From: Pollutimonas nitritireducens
GTDB taxonomy: Bacteria; Pseudomonadota; Gammaproteobacteria; Burkholderiales; Burkholderiaceae_B
Direction: 5' to 3'
NCBI RefSeq assembly: GCF_002849615.1
Contig: NZ_PDNV01000009.1
Coordinates: 1 to 64,000, forward strand
DNA: 64,000 nucleotides
A model generated the notes under the pieces. The model had not been told where the DNA came from and did no database searches. It worked only from the letters and a program-made list of their open reading frames with translations. This document shows, piece by piece, positions 41,705-51,104 of this stretch (the first letter of the stretch is position 1; each line of letters opens with the position of its first letter). The translations under genes were made by a program, and so were the position numbers.

Positions 41705-42454
41705 ATGGTGCATCGCGTCATGAATCAGCTGCCTTCTGAAACGCTTACCATACTGGTCGTCGATGATGATCCAGTAACGTGTGCGCGGCATAAAGCCTAC
41801 TTTGAGCGTCAAGGCTACCTCGTATTGATCGCCGGCAGCGGCCCTGAGATGTGGCACTGCATGCAGCACGCGAAAGTTGCCTTGATATTGCTGGACGTAG
41901 GACTGCCAGGCAAAGATGGTCTCGAGCTTGCCCGCGAGTTACGTGCTCACGATGACTATTTGGGAATAATCCTGGTAAGCGGACGTGACGACGATATCGA
42001 CAAGATCGTAGGGCTGGAGTCGGGCGCCAATGATTATGTGACGAAACCGTTCAATTCCCGCGAGCTGCTGGCGCGCGTAAAGATCGTCCTGAGACAAACC
42101 CATCGACTACGTCCGCGTCAATTAATTGAAGTGCAGCAGGAACTTCGCTACTTCGGTGGCTGGACGCTGGATCTCGCTTGCCGCCGACTCAAGGACGACA
42201 ACGGAGGCGAACTCACGCTATCGCGCGGCGAAATGGATTTACTGATAGCCCTGGGGCAACGGCCGGGCATGGTGGTTAGCAGGAGCACACTCACGCAGGC
42301 GATAAGCCAGCGACCGTGGGACGCGTCCGACCGCACGATAGACGTACTGATATCAAGACTGAGGAAAAAATTACGGGACGACCCTCAAAAACCTCGGCTA
42401 ATCATCACCATCCGTAGCGAGGGGTACGTTATGGTGGGCCGCCAAGAGGCTTGA
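41705..42454 (+). CDS. torR: OmpR-family response regulator, TorR-like
   Basis: This 249-residue protein has a receiver domain (1-130) with the acidic pocket VVDDDPV, phospho-acceptor Asp64 in LLDVGLPGKDG and Lys in DYVTKPFN. A winged-helix DNA-binding domain follows, with LTLSRGEMDLLIALGQRPGMVVSR and RTIDVLISRLRKKLRDDP. The receiver resembles TorR closely, including DDPVTCARHKAYFERQGY and IILVSGRDDDIDKIVGLESGANDYVTKP. Its partner should be the hybrid kinase encoded opposite, and its target the torA-like gene. Its last 57 bases overlap that kinase gene on the other strand. ATG 41720 is an alternative start. Confidence 0.84.
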   Translation: MVHRVMNQLPSETLTILVVDDDPVTCARHKAYFERQGYLVLIAGSGPEMWHCMQHAKVALILLDVGLPGKDGLELARELRAHDDYLGIILVSGRDDDIDKIVGLESGANDYVTKPFNSRELLARVKIVLRQTHRLRPRQLIEVQQELRYFGGWTLDLACRRLKDDNGGELTLSRGEMDLLIALGQRPGMVVSRSTLTQAISQRPWDASDRTIDVLISRLRKKLRDDPQKPRLIITIRSEGYVMVGRQEA

Positions 42455-44083
42455 CCTGAGTTCATCACAGCTTGCGTGGCACAGCCGTGCAAGTTCCGAA
42501 ATAAGATGGTCCATCACAGGCTCGTTTACGATGGGTCCGTTCGTCGCTATTTCAAGCTGACGTGCGGCATCAACGACGAATGTCATGCCCAGGTTGCCGG
42601 CTGCGCTGCGCAACCGATGGGCATCGCCCGCGACGGAAATCCAATCCTTGCGCAGTACGGCAGCATCAATGGCACCAAGGTCGGTAGCCACCCCGGCGCG
42701 GAATATGTTCAACAATTCCAGCATCATGGCTACGCCGAGCTCCCCGATCTCGGTTTCTACCCAGGCGGCGTCGAGCAGACTTGGGGCCTTGGCAGCGCCG
42801 AAAGAAGACGTTGCGTGATCCGCGGGCACGATGGTCACGTTATTGCGCCCCGCCGTCACTGTTCGCAAGGTCTCATTCAATTGCAACGAGGTGAATGGCT
42901 TACGCAGGAACGCAGACATTCCAGCCAGCAAGGAGCGCTCCATGACATTGCCCGACAGGTCGGCCGACATGACGATCACGGGCACCTGCTTCCACATTCC
43001 CCCTTGCATCTCGCGAATCTGCATAGCCAAGTCTATGCCGGAAGTGCCTGGCAGGTTCATATCCATCAAGATGGCGTCCACCCGGTCTCTTGACTGCAGA
43101 ATGTGCAAAACTTGGCGACCATCGCCGGCCACAAGTGGATGATGGCCATTCGATGCAAGATAGCGGGTACAAACAAGACGGTTGATTTCGTCATCTTCCA
43201 CCAGCAAGACTGTCAACGAACCCGCATCACTGGCAGTCGAACGGGCAATAGACCGCGATGCTGTCGCCGGCATGCTGGCCGCACTATCGAACTCAAGGTG
43301 AAAGCGGATGCGGCTTCCTTCGTTCAACTTGCTGTCCAGGCGGATATCGCCGCCCATTCCGTCAATCAGGCGCCGGCAGATCGCAAGACCCAGGCCTGTC
43401 CCCCCCCGGCGGCCGTGAACCAGATGTTCCACCTGCACGAAGGGCTTGAACACCTCGGCGCACTGTTCCGAAGGAACACCAATTCCGGTATCGGTAATTG
43501 AAAAATGCAGCATCACCCGCTGGGCGCGCGATGGGTGGGCCGTCACCGCGATCGTGACTGACCCTTCATCGGTGAACTTGATGGCATTGCCGATAATGTT
43601 AAGCAAAACCTGATTGAGTTTGCGTCGGTCGCCCATGATGACGACAGGGACATCCCGATCGATATCGCGGATCAGTGCGATGCCTCGCTTCTGCGCCTGT
43701 ATCGTCTGCAATGAAAGCATGTCATCGATGACGGCATGCACGTCGAACGGGACGATCTGAGCCTCGTACTTCCCCGATTCGATCCGCGAATAATTCAACA
43801 TATCGTCCAGGACTTCCAATAGCGTCGTGTTCGCGTAGGAGATCATCCGCGCGTACTCGCGCTGACGCTCATCCAGCTTGGTATCCTGTAACAATTGCAC
43901 AGCGCCACTTACTCCGCTGAGCGGCGTCCGAAGTTCATGGCTGAGAGATGCCATGAACACGTTTCCCGCCTGCGCTTTCTCCTCGATTCGTCTGAATCGG
44001 CAAACGAGATGAAACGTGTAATACATCCACATCGGAATGACAATTGCCAAGACCAGCATGGTTATCCAGTACAGCTTCGGAAT
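42398..44083 (-). CDS. torS: TorS-like hybrid histidine kinase lacking a periplasmic sensor (probable ATT start)
   Basis: From ATG 44059 the protein is 553 residues; from ATT 44083 it is 561 and gains PKLYWIT before the membrane helix. GGAGGGAG lies six bases before that ATT, and no ribosome site precedes the ATG. One membrane helix is followed by the kinase core (phospho-His41 in SLSHELRTPLSG, ATG numbering; Asn in LLNIIGNAIKFTD; GTGLGLAICRRL). Then come a receiver (Asp333 in LMDMNLPG) and an HPt domain (His481 in DAHRLRSAAGNLG), i.e. a full phosphorelay. Escherichia coli TorS is over 900 residues with a large periplasmic and HAMP part, absent here. It follows the torA-like gene after a terminator. 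Confidence 0.8.
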   Translation of the reverse strand: MPKLYWITMLVLAIVIPMWMYYTFHLVCRFRRIEEKAQAGNVFMASLSHELRTPLSGVSGAVQLLQDTKLDERQREYARMISYANTTLLEVLDDMLNYSRIESGKYEAQIVPFDVHAVIDDMLSLQTIQAQKRGIALIRDIDRDVPVVIMGDRRKLNQVLLNIIGNAIKFTDEGSVTIAVTAHPSRAQRVMLHFSITDTGIGVPSEQCAEVFKPFVQVEHLVHGRRGGTGLGLAICRRLIDGMGGDIRLDSKLNEGSRIRFHLEFDSAASMPATASRSIARSTASDAGSLTVLLVEDDEINRLVCTRYLASNGHHPLVAGDGRQVLHILQSRDRVDAILMDMNLPGTSGIDLAMQIREMQGGMWKQVPVIVMSADLSGNVMERSLLAGMSAFLRKPFTSLQLNETLRTVTAGRNNVTIVPADHATSSFGAAKAPSLLDAAWVETEIGELGVAMMLELLNIFRAGVATDLGAIDAAVLRKDWISVAGDAHRLRSAAGNLGMTFVVDAARQLEIATNGPIVNEPVMDHLISELARLCHASCDELRSSLLAAHHNVPLATDGDD

Positions 44084-44159: not shown

Positions 44160-46820
44160 TTACTTGGTCACTGCGTCCTTTGCGTTCTTGGCCAAGAACT
44201 CCAGTACCAGCTTGCGTTCGCCGTCGTCCAGGCCGGCACGCGGGAACATGCTCTGCGTGATGCCCATCCATTGACTCATTGTATAGTCGCCGGGCTCTCG
44301 CGCCACGTGACACAAGGTACACCGTCCATAAAACAACTTTTCGCCCGGCGACATGGACCCGAGAGTCGCCCCTTTCAGGTTTTGTGCGCGGGTAGCGAGG
44401 TTCATTGAAGCGATATCCAGCGCGATGCCCTTGTTCTGTTCGATGGCAGGGGGTTCGAATGCCCGATTTTCGGATTCGGGATCAATACATTTTTTGAGGC
44501 TGGCCACGCAGGTATTGGCGCTTGTCGCCTGACTCAGCCCGCTAGCCGGAACACTGGTCGTGATGACATTGATCGATCCACTGTTGCATCGGCCTTTCGA
44601 GTCGAATTGCACCCATCCGCCTTCTTCCAGACTGACGACACCCTTCATGATCTGTTCAGTCACGCGTGCGCCCGCAATCACGGCACCGCGTTCGTTGAAG
44701 AGCTCCACCAGGTCGCCATCCTTGATGCCATTGGCCTTCGCATCTTCAAGGCTCACCAGCACATGCTGGCGTCCCTGGATGTGCTGCTCATTGCGAAGGT
44801 CGGTATTGGCCATTTGCGAATGCAGGCGATTGAATGGATGCGGACTGACCACATGCACCTGGCCGGGCTTGGCATTACCCAAATATTCGATGGGCTCCAG
44901 GAACTTAGGGATCGGCGGGCAATCAGCAACCTTGGCTTTGGCGATGACGTCGCAATACAGTTCGATCTTGCCCGACGCGGTATGCAGCGGCTTGTTAACC
45001 GGATCAGTATAGAAATCGCCATGGCGCACCCATTGATGCATCGGTTCGGGTACGTCCAACTTAACGTGCCCTTTCTCCCAGAACTCATCAAAAGGAATAC
45101 CCGGGTTGGCATGCGCATAGGCATTTTGAAGGATTTGCTTAACGGTCAGGCCTTCAGTGAATTGAAAGCCTACGCCCATCAGATCGCCGAGACGCTTGAA
45201 GATCTCAAAATCATCCAGACTCTCACCATAAGGCTCGATCACCTGCCGCATGGCATAGATCTTATCGTTGCCATAGGTACCGCCGGAACTCATATCATCG
45301 CGTTCAAGCGCCGACGTAGCCGGCAATACGATATCGGCGAAACGCGACGAGGCGCACCACCATGGATCCTGGCAGATGAACGTCTGGACCTGCTGGTTTA
45401 ATGCACGCAACAACTCATTCGTGTCCTGCTGGTGCGACATCACATTATTTCCGGAGGTATAAACGAGCTTGACATCCGGAAAGGTGTCTTCAGTACCATC
45501 ACGCGTGTACTTCTTGCCCGGATTCAGCAACATCTCGCTGATGCGCGATGCAGGGCAGCGCGAAGTCAACGGATTACGCCCTTGAGGAATGCCGATAGGC
45601 ATCACCTTGGTCGATTGCGGCATTCCGCCGCCACCATAGTGCCAGCTGAAACCGATGCCTTCACCCGGCTTCCCGATTTTGCCCAGCATCGCGGCCAGAT
45701 TGATGGCTGCCCAATGAGGCATCTCGCCATGATGAGCGCGCTGTAACGACCAGCCAATGGCAAACTGCGTCCGCTTGGCGGCGAACAGCTCTGCCAACTC
45801 GACGATTTTTGCCGCGGGAATACCGGTGATTGCTGCGGCCCATTCGGGTGTCTTGGGAGGTGTCCCGTCGGCGTCCTTGCCCAACAAATAGGGCAGGAAT
45901 TTGTCCAGTCCGACGGTGTATTTATCCAGATACGCCTGGTCGTGCTTGCCGTTGGTATATATGTACCAGGACATGGCAAGGAACAAGGCAGTATCCGTAT
46001 TGGGCACGATTTTCACCCAGTCCGAGCCCATGGCAACGTCGGTGGGTGTGTATTGAGGGTTGATGGAAATGAACTTGACGCCCCTTTCCTTGATCTTCTT
46101 CCAGCGAGGGTACATCTGGTGATCGGCCACCGTGAACTCGACGCGATTATTCTTCCAGGGATCGCAACCGACCCAGACCATGACTTCGGTCTTGTCGGCA
46201 ATGACTTCCCACGCGGTCTGCGGCGAATACACTTCCATATCGCCGATGATGTGCGGCAAGCTGATCTGCGACGCGCCGGCTGAATAATCGCCCGTGGTGA
46301 CGGAATGGCCTCCTATCAGGTTGAACAACCGGCCCTGAAGAACCTGTGGTCGCAGAAGTCCCGCATGCGACCAACCACCGTACGAAGCACTGAACAATGA
46401 CTGATTCCCGTGCTTTTCAGCCGTGGTAAGGATCGCATTGGCTGTGATGGCCAGTGCTTCCTCCCAACTCACCCGGACGAAGGGCTCCTTGCCCCGCAGA
46501 TGCGGTTTCGTATCACCGGTGGGGTCGGCCAGATACGACTTGCGGATCATTGGGTACTGAACCCGGGTCTTGTGATAGACGCGACCGAGCAGCCCCTCGG
46601 TAAGCATTTTCGTGGGCATGGCGTCCAGGTCGGGCAGAGCCTGGACACCGATCAGCACACCGTTCTGCACGACAGCCTTGAAAGGTCCCCAATGACTGGC
46701 ACTAGGTATGGTCACCGTGTCGGCCGCAAATACCGCATTTGCGCCGAACCATGTGAGTCCGTTGGCGGCTACCGTGGATGCCACCGTGGTCTTGAGGAAT
46801 GTTCTTCTACTGACTTGCAT
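44160..46820 (-). CDS. torA: TMAO/S- or N-oxide reductase (TorA-like molybdoenzyme) with C-terminal haem c site
   Basis: This 886-residue protein has a Tat signal (SRRTFLKTT at 4-12). The molybdopterin domain has SYGGWSHAG at 146-154 and the probable Mo ligand Ser180 in TTGDYSAGASQISLPHIIGDMEVYSPQTAWEV, as in TorA/DorA. The dinucleotide-binding domain (VHVVSPHPFNRLHSQMANTDLR) follows at 650-800. Unlike Escherichia coli TorA (848 residues), the chain ends in a monohaem c segment, CTLCH at 834-838, followed by PGDYTMSQWMGITQSMFPRAGLDDGERKLVLEFL, similar to the C-terminal haem domain of TorC. No torC or torD is nearby. The exact substrate (TMAO, DMSO, biotin sulfoxide) is not certain. Confidence 0.86.
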   Translation of the reverse strand: MQVSRRTFLKTTVASTVAANGLTWFGANAVFAADTVTIPSASHWGPFKAVVQNGVLIGVQALPDLDAMPTKMLTEGLLGRVYHKTRVQYPMIRKSYLADPTGDTKPHLRGKEPFVRVSWEEALAITANAILTTAEKHGNQSLFSASYGGWSHAGLLRPQVLQGRLFNLIGGHSVTTGDYSAGASQISLPHIIGDMEVYSPQTAWEVIADKTEVMVWVGCDPWKNNRVEFTVADHQMYPRWKKIKERGVKFISINPQYTPTDVAMGSDWVKIVPNTDTALFLAMSWYIYTNGKHDQAYLDKYTVGLDKFLPYLLGKDADGTPPKTPEWAAAITGIPAAKIVELAELFAAKRTQFAIGWSLQRAHHGEMPHWAAINLAAMLGKIGKPGEGIGFSWHYGGGGMPQSTKVMPIGIPQGRNPLTSRCPASRISEMLLNPGKKYTRDGTEDTFPDVKLVYTSGNNVMSHQQDTNELLRALNQQVQTFICQDPWWCASSRFADIVLPATSALERDDMSSGGTYGNDKIYAMRQVIEPYGESLDDFEIFKRLGDLMGVGFQFTEGLTVKQILQNAYAHANPGIPFDEFWEKGHVKLDVPEPMHQWVRHGDFYTDPVNKPLHTASGKIELYCDVIAKAKVADCPPIPKFLEPIEYLGNAKPGQVHVVSPHPFNRLHSQMANTDLRNEQHIQGRQHVLVSLEDAKANGIKDGDLVELFNERGAVIAGARVTEQIMKGVVSLEEGGWVQFDSKGRCNSGSINVITTSVPASGLSQATSANTCVASLKKCIDPESENRAFEPPAIEQNKGIALDIASMNLATRAQNLKGATLGSMSPGEKLFYGRCTLCHVAREPGDYTMSQWMGITQSMFPRAGLDDGERKLVLEFLAKNAKDAVTK

Positions 46821-46926
46821 GTTGCACTCTCGCCTAAAGTCGTTTACTTCAGAAACTGCCTAATCCAAAGTGTACGGAGCGGTCGTGAACCCGATGAGCG
46901 GATCGAGTTAATGCAGCGGAGAGATT

Positions 46927-46943
46927 TGTTAATCGCGTTAACA
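46927..46943. promoter_or_regulatory. Candidate operator palindrome upstream of the torA-like gene
   Basis: TGTTAA and TTAACA are perfect inverted repeats separated by TCGCG. The site lies 107 bases before the torA-like start and near the 3' end of the MFS gene. The binding protein is unknown. It does not match the decamer boxes known for Escherichia coli TorR in any obvious way. Confidence 0.4.
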
Positions 46944-46981
46944 GGCGCCAGCATTGCACACTGCCTCGCTGTGCAGTGCCT

Positions 46982-50375: not shown

Positions 50376-50738
50376 CTACTTGCGTACCGCCAGAGGTGAC
50401 TCGAGACTGGACAACCAAGCCGCGATATTGGCGATATCTGTCGAGGAAAGCGGCGCCGCCATAGCGCCCATTACAGCATTCTTGCGAATATTCGCCGTGG
50501 CGGGAGCGCCACTTGCACCGCGTTGGTAGGCGCGCAAGGCATGCCGTAGATAATCTTCATGTTGCCCGGCCAGTATGGGATACGTAGGCAATACCGATGT
50601 CTTGGCATCGGCACCATGGCACGAGGCACAGGCGAATTTTTCAAATGCCGCTTTGCCGGCGGCCACATCGGCGGCGACAGCACCGGATGCAGTGGAGAAC
50701 ATGGCGGCGGCCGCCAGAGCGAATGACAGTTTTTTCAT
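50376..50738 (-). CDS. Small c-type cytochrome (class I, c4/c553-like)
   Basis: This 120-residue protein has a Sec signal peptide (MKKLSFALAAAAMFSTASGAVA, cleaved near 22) and one haem site, CASCH, at about 37-41. PILAGQHEDYLRHALRAYQRG follows, as in each half of cytochrome c4. A Met in NAVMGAMAAPLSS is the likely sixth ligand. It is periplasmic and would carry electrons to a terminal oxidase or reductase. It follows the second cytochrome gene by 12 bases, forming a two-gene operon whose products together resemble a split dihaem c4. Confidence 0.88.
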   Translation of the reverse strand: MKKLSFALAAAAMFSTASGAVAADVAAGKAAFEKFACASCHGADAKTSVLPTYPILAGQHEDYLRHALRAYQRGASGAPATANIRKNAVMGAMAAPLSSTDIANIAAWLSSLESPLAVRK

Positions 50739-50750
50739 GCTGGCCCCCGA

Positions 50751-51104
50751 TTATTTAAGGCTGGAGTAATAGGCGGCCAGGTCGGCCATGTCTTGTGGCG
50801 ACAGGCTTTGCGCGATGGCTTCCATGGTGGGGAACGAGCGGCCGCCATTGGCGTATTCATTCAGGGCGGCAACGATATACTCTGCATTCTGGCCGGCAAT
50901 CATGGGAACGTTATAGACCTCTGGAAAACTGGCCTTATAGCCCGGTATGCCATGGCAACCGATGCACATCGAGATCTTAGAGAGAGCGGCCTTGGCGTCG
51001 CCCACGGGCGCGGCATCCGCCGCGAGGGCTTGGCCCGCATAAACACAGGAAGCCATAACGGCCAGCGCAGCAAAAGTGCGCGTCAGGGGGGATCGCAGCT
51101 TCAT
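50751..51104 (-). CDS. Small c-type cytochrome (class I)
   Basis: This 117-residue protein has a signal peptide (FAALAVMASCVYAGQALA, cleaved near 29) and the haem site CIGCH at about 47-51. PMIAGQNAEYIVAALNEYANGGRSFPTMEAIAQSLSPQDMADLAAYYSSL follows, with the sixth-ligand Met in FPTMEAI. It is the first gene of the two-cytochrome operon. The upstream 141 bases contain an FNR-like site. Partner enzymes are not identifiable from the neighbours. Confidence 0.88.
   Translation of the reverse strand: MKLRSPLTRTFAALAVMASCVYAGQALAADAAPVGDAKAALSKISMCIGCHGIPGYKASFPEVYNVPMIAGQNAEYIVAALNEYANGGRSFPTMEAIAQSLSPQDMADLAAYYSSLK

Follow-up and report, generated by a model that had tools for sequence, protein, structure and literature searches.

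The reduction of trimethylamine N-oxide (TMAO), dimethyl sulfoxide (DMSO), and methionine sulfoxide is commonly assigned through torC/torA gene pairs. Here we analyze a gene at 44160-46820 of a 64,000-nucleotide stretch of Pollutimonas nitritireducens DNA (contig NZ_PDNV01000009.1, positions 1 to 64,000; hereafter, the window), whose product is predicted to unite a TorA-type reductase and a TorC-type heme domain in a single chain. In comparison with the E. coli TorCAD/TorTSR system, its catalytic domain is homologous to TorA, its tail is homologous to the fifth-heme domain of TorC, and homologs of TorS and TorR are encoded next to it; the differences are that family searches found neither TorC nor TorD in this genome and that the TorS homolog has no sensor. 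The TorA-TorB pair of Campylobacter jejuni (Cj0264-Cj0265), compared here through its published description rather than its sequences, likewise combines a TorA-type enzyme and a monoheme c domain of the TorC C-terminal type in the absence of TorC, and its electrons arrive via a cytochrome bc complex (PMC6195509). A cytochrome bc1 complex is also present in our genome. However, TorB is separate and soluble in C. jejuni and the quinol is menaquinol, whereas here the heme is part of the enzyme chain and we found no route to menaquinone. The closest solved structures, those of DorA (Rhodobacter) and MtsZ (Haemophilus influenzae), cover residues ~22-791, so that their matches end by residue 791, short of the heme domain, and they carry Tyr-Gly-Trp where our protein has Tyr-Gly-Gly-Trp. 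Closer at hand, three monoheme TorB-like proteins with a TorC-type hinge (loci L106-L108, from the same GTDB family as the window) are paired with an unfused TorA; our tail aligns with them over the same C-x-x-C-H, W, G, and M, but they are separate genes, have the hinge upstream of the heme domain, and their TorA partners lie on their own branch outside the fused group. Another periplasmic reductase with a C-terminal monoheme c, the nitrous oxide reductase cNosZ of Wolinella, is a Sec-exported copper enzyme. It is unrelated, and the fused TorA instead unites a twin-arginine translocation (Tat) signal with heme c.

The features of the gene, all on the minus strand, are as follows.

44160-46820 (-), fused TorA-heme c reductase, 886 residues (stop codon included in the coordinates), based on the open reading frame, TIGR00509 and torC matches, and 36 fused homologs.
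46722-46820 (-), Tat-type signal region, residues ~1-33 (SRRTFLK), based on a PF10518 match below cut-off (E value 0.0047) and the twin-arginine motif in homologs.
44451-46700 (-), catalytic bis(molybdopterin guanine dinucleotide) (bis-MGD) domain, residues 41-790, based on PF18364, PF00384, and PF01568 and on PDB matches to DorA, MtsZ, and TorA.
46371-46382 (-), Tyr147-Gly-Gly-Trp150, invariant in 37/37 sequences; Tyr-Gly-Trp in DorA and MtsZ.
46281-46283 (-), Ser180, probable molybdenum ligand, invariant in 37/37 sequences and within a GDYS motif common with DorA.
44349-44450 (-), linker, residues 791-824, the gap between the last TorA-type model match and the heme domain.
44163-44348 (-), heme c domain of the TorC C-terminal/TorB type, residues 825-886, based on TIGR02162 torC positions 325-382, the tail alignment, and the structural model.
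44307-44321 (-), CTLCH heme-binding motif, residues 834-838, with C834, C837, and H838 invariant in 37/37 sequences.
44247-44249 (-), Met858, probable sixth heme ligand, invariant in 37/37 sequences and in 17/17 aligned TorC, TorB-like, and fused tails.

The Tat signal, Ser180, CTLCH at residues 834-838, SYGGW at residues 146-150, and the gene coordinates had all been given in a preliminary description of this DNA, and each was found in the sequence; Ser180 presumably binds molybdenum as it does in DorA. The protein starts with MQVSRRTFLK, which is Tat-like. Over the catalytic part, PF18364, PF00384, and PF01568 each score above cut-off and together represent the three-domain molybdopterin fold of the TorA/DorA/BisC family. 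TIGR00509 (bisC_fam) covers residues 41-793 with an E value of 1.4e-247, yet its 823.8 bits fall below the curated cut-off of 1017.55, and neither NCBIfam TorA equivalog reaches its threshold (TIGR02164, 608.8 versus 1465 bits; NF011682, 638 versus 909 bits). Foldseek returned MtsZ of Haemophilus (7l5i) as the best PDB match of the catalytic part, with a template modeling (TM) score of 0.93 by target, and DorA as the second. The one-residue difference in Tyr-Trp spacing from DorA that had been described earlier, and that was suggested to alter the substrate range, was borne out as a sequence feature: SYGGW occurs in 37/37 sequences versus SYGW in the aligned DorA and MtsZ chains.

As for the tail, no Pfam cytochrome model scored above cut-off (DHC gave 14.5 versus 22.2 bits, E value 0.074). 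With the whole protein as query, residues 826-883 correspond to positions 325-382 of the 387 in TIGR02162 torC (E value 6.3e-8), and this match strengthens to 2.9e-9 when the last 126 residues alone are used. The AlphaFold2 model of the full-length protein has a mean predicted local distance difference test (pLDDT) score of 77 and a predicted TM score (pTM) of 0.79; the active-site loops and residues 837-840 are modeled with low confidence. A search of the PDB with the modeled heme domain gave no matches at an E value of 0.001 or below; the best were 2fwt (DHC, 0.16) and 2blf_B (a sulfite dehydrogenase, 0.88), which are suggestive only. Collectively, the sequence identifies the product as an 886-residue Tat-type molybdoenzyme of the TorA/DorA family with a TorC-type heme domain in the same chain.

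The artifact that such a fusion brings to mind, i.e., two genes joined by misassembly or a frameshift, or a tail in decay, was weighed against homologs. We scanned a species-genome collection with the tail alignment and obtained 294 candidate stretches and 38 loci; in 36 of these loci, the heme and catalytic domains share one frame (the exceptions being L054, which is split, and L057). Since the 36 homologs were retrieved through the tail, part of the reason that they possess it is the search itself; its patterns spanned residues near 850-857 and 874-881, so that CxxCH and Met858 lay outside them, whereas Trp851 and Gly853 fell inside one. The invariants of the resulting 37-row alignment are Tyr147, Gly148, Gly149, Trp150, Ser180, Cys834, Cys837, His838, Trp851, Gly853, and Met858, and a twin-arginine motif precedes 35 of the 36 homologs, none being seen in L053. 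Searches with the whole protein gave the same picture. In 399 genomes of the order, all four other matches of at least 58% identity, two of them broken copies, extend to residue 881-882, whereas none of the 10 matches of 38-43% identity passes residue 797. Similarly, among the 40 matches listed from 232 plasmid records, six with 55.6-67.2% identity extend at least as far as residue 882, and the other 34, at 40.8% identity or less, stop by residue 864. Close matches thus reach the end of the tail and distant ones stop short, which indicates that the tail belongs to the group.

In addition, between the window and its counterpart in the nearest relative, Pollutimonas subterranea (L020), the ratio of nonsynonymous to synonymous substitution rates (dN/dS) is 0.016 for the whole protein and 0.029 for the heme part, with 95.6% identity in the tail, so the heme domain, to judge from these codons, is under strong purifying selection. 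Broken copies in relatives (L008, L054/L009, L057, and L118) are what an artifact or a decaying tail would lead one to expect, but the 36 intact full-length fused frames in other assemblies, together with the L020 tail identity and heme-part dN/dS, already refute it, and we consider its probability negligible. A chance CxxCH was likewise rejected on the torC model match, the pattern of the whole-protein searches, the invariance, and dN/dS. Both findings that the preliminary description had named as telling against a fusion, a frameshift or misassembly and an unconserved CTLCH segment, were therefore examined, and the fusion is intact and the CxxCH segment conserved.

Disrupted fused torA genes form a small set of their own. 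An in-frame TAA interrupts the copy in L008, the Quisquiliibacterium copy (L054/L009) is split over two frames, and in L057 just the end of the tail stays in frame, without CxxCH. On a Photobacterium plasmid (L118), the matches come in two pieces, with the heme within a 360-residue frame.

With our own genome counted, a fused form was present in 5 of the 399 sampled genomes of the order, in 11 of 268 genomes of the family (E value < 1e-30; both domains in one frame in all 11), and in 4 of 398 genomes of the phylum, where the frames measure 885-939 residues. The carriers span several classes of Pseudomonadota, and those named include Pollutimonas, Thauera, Aromatoleum, Zoogloea, Acidovorax, Lautropia, Azospirillum, Phaeobacter, Moritella, and one metagenome-assembled genome (MAG) of Saprospiraceae, the last of which may reflect contamination or transfer. 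The phylogeny of homologs that had been proposed as a check placed 40 fused enzymes in a single group: in a tree of 60 catalytic domains, they lie on one side of a branch with a support of 100/100, and the fused-group branch requires one change in 100% of 200 bootstrap trees. The 20 nonfused rows comprise seven TorC-partnered and three TorB-partnered enzymes and ten without a partner assignment, and the tree program flagged long branches, e.g., L113 (in the fused group), L096, L013, and E. coli TorA. Because the tree was rooted at its midpoint only and Campylobacterota sequences were left out, it argues for a single origin within this sample rather than pointing to an ancestor.

We found no report of a TorA with a fused heme in the open literature searched, the available parts of PMC6195509 included. 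The fused form is a variation of the known TorA-TorB/TorC arrangement; it is conserved, and none of the five annotated plasmid records gives it a specific name, the gene being labeled only 'molybdopterin-dependent oxidoreductase.' Given this generic label and the lack of an adjoining torC, oxide respiration may be overlooked in Thauera, Aromatoleum, Azospirillum, Pollutimonas, and others.

The same heme domain is found on other proteins. We aligned 17 tails (E. coli TorC, three monoheme TorB-like proteins, one three-heme protein, three other TorC-type proteins, and nine fused tails), and all 17 share C-x-x-C-H, W, G, and M, in agreement with the earlier proposal that the enzyme has acquired the last carrier domain of TorC by fusion, which the TIGR02162 match and the fused homologs also bear out. 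A pentaheme TorC carries a related heme domain beside TorA in six loci (L096, L097, L100, L103, L104, and L110). Another donor for the same heme plug is found in L109, where one chain (1241-2866) combines a diheme cytochrome c with a hydrophobic N-terminus, the TorC hinge, and a TorC-type heme domain, and adjoins TorD-like and TorA stretches. Taken with the monoheme proteins of L106-L108 and the fused reductase itself, these cases make the TorC-type heme domain look like an exchangeable plug for TorA. Five other, weak matches in the phylum (L098, L099, L101, L102, and L105) count against a broad version of this idea: each is a small cytochrome, and the 8-11 kb retrieved with it holds no TorA match.

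Next, we asked which donors are encoded in the genomes with a fused enzyme. Our own genome is 100% complete by the tool's figure and gave no match to the NapC/NirT family of quinol dehydrogenases, for which an E. coli control was positive; hence, it has no TorC, and the earlier statement that none lies nearby extends to the whole genome. The family search for TorD also gave no match there. We compared the 22 other genomes behind 22 of the 38 fused loci (one of them the split L054). TorD-family proteins, at the level of the family rather than the individual member, were found in 18 of them. Near the 38 fused loci themselves, neither TorD nor the tetraheme part of TorC was detected with E. coli queries, which a distant TorD could escape. 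NapC/NirT proteins occur in 13 of the 22 and were not found in 9, so that this class of donor is not required. The bc1 operon is complete in our genome, with adjacent genes for the Rieske protein, cytochrome b, and cytochrome c1, and cytochrome c1 is present in 22/22 of the others. The quinone test covered the menaquinone routes through MenD and PF02621 (MqnA/D family). MenD scored above cut-off in 4 of the 23 genomes, our own included in that total (two Azospirillum and two Moritella), and PF02621 in one, L020 (26.9 versus a cut-off of 26 bits), with no match in our genome. Most of these 23 genomes, including ours, are thus probably without menaquinone.

Genes for soluble carriers were sought at 47 loci as CxxCH frames of 85-449 residues and with one pseudoazurin query, from Leisingera, as the sole cupredoxin probe. 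In Zoogloea, a gene for a 101-residue class I cytochrome c lies 73 bp downstream of the fused torA. In the Saprospiraceae MAG, an OpuAC domain (betaine-type binding) fused to a class I cytochrome c is encoded 9 bp downstream (L038:10268-11548). On a Leisingera plasmid, pseudoazurin (L117:12556-12990) ends the run torA-moeA-DUF2478-moaA-pseudoazurin. Three of the CxxCH frames (L035, L038, and L042) were run against Pfam; that of L042, ~1.1 kb downstream, matches a MauG-type diheme peroxidase and was not counted as a carrier. We read the occurrence of soluble carrier genes near the fused torA in three lineages as a sign that the fused heme accepts electrons from the carrier pool.

In the window, two adjacent small class I cytochromes c are encoded at 50376-51104 (-), beside a MoxR/VWA-like gene pair, and had been suggested to feed the reductase. 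They lie >3.5 kb from torA, past genes for a major facilitator superfamily (MFS) protein and an isocitrate-dehydrogenase-like protein, and the 10 kb on either side of the L020 torA contain no CxxCH frame of 85-449 residues. As a dedicated partner, this pair is thus unsupported by linkage in L020, although its members may serve as pool carriers. The other feeder once proposed, an unknown quinol dehydrogenase, is possible as well, but it is not needed because the bc1 complex is present.

On this evidence, we consider it fairly probable that the enzyme reduces an N- or S-oxide in the periplasm, with TMAO the most likely substrate, and draws electrons from the soluble pool through its own heme; donor and substrate are both inferred. 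In such a scheme, bc1 would oxidize ubiquinol, and a soluble periplasmic carrier (here a class I cytochrome c; pseudoazurin in some relatives) would deliver single electrons to the fused heme. Tethered above the substrate funnel, this heme would reduce the bis-MGD molybdenum, in likeness to the model of the E. coli TorC domain, whose C-terminal heme was placed over the funnel, 17-35 Å from the molybdenum (PMC11727998). The oxide would then be reduced at Mo-Ser180, with the fusion making the docking of a TorC or TorB protein unnecessary. The TorSR pair would control expression, and to this pair about half of the related loci add TorT and a full TorS for sensing TMAO. There is a precedent in C. 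jejuni, where TMAO reduction requires QcrABC and Garg et al. propose transfer from QcrC to the separate TorB (PMC6195509). More broadly, although we lean somewhat against it, one-piece oxide reductases could be widespread in apparently ubiquinone-only bacteria and plugged into the periplasmic carrier pool, so that TMAO is respired after bc1 in the manner of a terminal oxidase. If true, this would contradict the published view that the bc1 route needs menaquinol.

Several observations weigh against soluble-pool TMAO reduction. TMAO reduction driven by ubiquinol and routed through bc1 is judged clearly unfavorable against a normal proton-motive force (PMC6195509), and the best MenD score in our genome is 76.6 versus a cut-off of 244.2 bits, with 18 of the 22 others likewise below cut-off. 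The bc1 step would therefore be thermodynamically strained unless the membrane potential is low, the ratio of TMAO to trimethylamine (TMA) is high, or another dehydrogenase reduces cytochrome c. The bc1 complex, which the model requires, turned up in every genome tested, as it often does in bacteria of this kind, and therefore has no discriminating value. NapC/NirT proteins occur in 13 of the 22 other genomes; a few of these matches lie in frames of ~370-420 residues, a length that would accommodate the TorC of another system. Moreover, carrier genes stand beside the fused torA in just three scanned loci and none adjoins that of the window, the best fold match of the catalytic part is a methionine sulfoxide reductase with DorA next, and donor, heme, and activity are here predictions. 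Lastly, we searched for the Tor box with the motif CTGTTCATAT, which we take to be its form; the window holds 51 matches versus 38.5 expected, and no tor-box-like site with up to two mismatches is present at 46821-46981, between torA and the MFS gene. If the soluble-pool model is true, the strain would have to be met by a low force or plentiful TMAO, by other dehydrogenases that reduce cytochrome c, or by low-flux repair, and our data favor none of these. A ubiquinol- and bc1-driven reductase would provide a clear test of the stated bioenergetic limit, and in a one-piece enzyme, the last electron step is directly measurable in the purified protein.

Alternatively, a quinol dehydrogenase that does not belong to the NapC/NirT family, e.g., a NapGH-like or b-type membrane protein, could feed the fused heme and bypass bc1, and by the energetics of PMC6195509, this route would allow a ubiquinone cell to reduce TMAO without an opposing membrane potential. 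The TorC-type heme domain on the unrelated diheme cytochrome of L109 is in keeping with such a donor. E. coli YccM, however, was unmatched in the 38 loci and the window, a weak negative given that no genome search for such proteins was made; neighboring frames were listed, without annotation, for 19 fused loci. We regard this route as quite unlikely.

The predicted chain also raises a question of biogenesis. A c-type heme is joined to an unfolded cytochrome outside the cytoplasm, and Tat exports folded proteins, which makes a Tat signal and a covalent heme c an odd pair in one chain. To our knowledge, a folded enzyme exported by Tat with a heme c on an open tail is a combination that c-type maturation would not be expected to allow easily; the linker may keep the tail open until export. 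Our literature search for Tat export combined with heme c returned nothing, and how the export of a folded molybdoenzyme is reconciled with c-type heme ligation deserves attention.

Two regulatory genes that were absent from the preliminary description adjoin the reductase.

42398-44059 (-), TorS-like hybrid kinase without periplasmic sensor or HAMP domain, 553 residues, based on a TIGR02956 match below cut-off (E value 3.6e-117).
41705-42454 (+), TorR-like response regulator with a tail-to-tail overlap with torS, based on NF008034 TorR (E value 1.4e-69).

The kinase match spans positions 458-942 of the 967 in TIGR02956, and NF008034 is the best NCBIfam match of the regulator, though below the model cut-off. 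The window kinase has 39 residues before its H-box; the range is 30-71 across the window, L021, and L026, compared with 480-501 in five TorT-bearing relatives. The L020 kinase has the same length as that of the window (553 residues), and a dN/dS of 0.119 between the two indicates purifying selection on the shortened TorS despite the loss of its sensor. The window thus holds TorR-like and sensorless TorS-like genes rather than a TorTSR set of TorT, sensor-bearing TorS, and TorR. In E. coli, apo-TorC binds the sensor domain of TorS (PMC11727998), a feedback that cannot work in the same way for a TorS without sensor; in the window's group, control is probably by constitutive expression or an internal signal.

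Of the 38 fused loci, whose flanks are unequal in length, 22 have TorR-like and TorS-like genes nearby and 21 have TorT, with the full trio at 19. These patterns bear on what the enzyme reduces. Its main job could be repair, i.e., the reduction of methionine sulfoxide in periplasmic proteins with the cytochrome c pool as feed, and the low electron flux of such a task would remove the energetic objection. MtsZ, the best Foldseek match (7l5i, TM score 0.93; DorA close behind), is a methionine sulfoxide reductase (PMC5122715), and BisA of Campylobacter concisus, with the monoheme BisB, respires oxides and also repairs methionine sulfoxide (PMC10653797). A lost TMAO sensor would fit a repair function: TorT and the TorS sensor were not found in the window, L020, L021, or L026, where TorS and TorR are present, and no tor regulators were found beside the fused torA in Lautropia and several Comamonadaceae loci. 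On the other hand, the TMAO-sensing set of TorT, TorS, and TorR adjoins the fused gene in 19 of the 38 loci, and the sequence bits for DorA and MtsZ are nearly equal, so the fold match leaves the substrate undecided. We therefore consider repair as the main function unlikely.

The same regulators bear on reverse operation as a dehydrogenase, e.g., of dimethyl sulfide, with electrons passing via the heme to cytochrome c and an oxidase. By the potentials involved, this would be the downhill direction in a ubiquinone cell with bc1 and a high-potential carrier pool. Nevertheless, it is very improbable, given the TMAO-sensing TorT near 21 of the 38 fused loci and the fact that the TorC-type domain serves reduction in C. 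jejuni and E. coli (PMC6195509, PMC11727998). Among the annotated plasmid records, torT is annotated beside the fused gene in four of five, and molybdenum cofactor genes lie behind torA in three of five.

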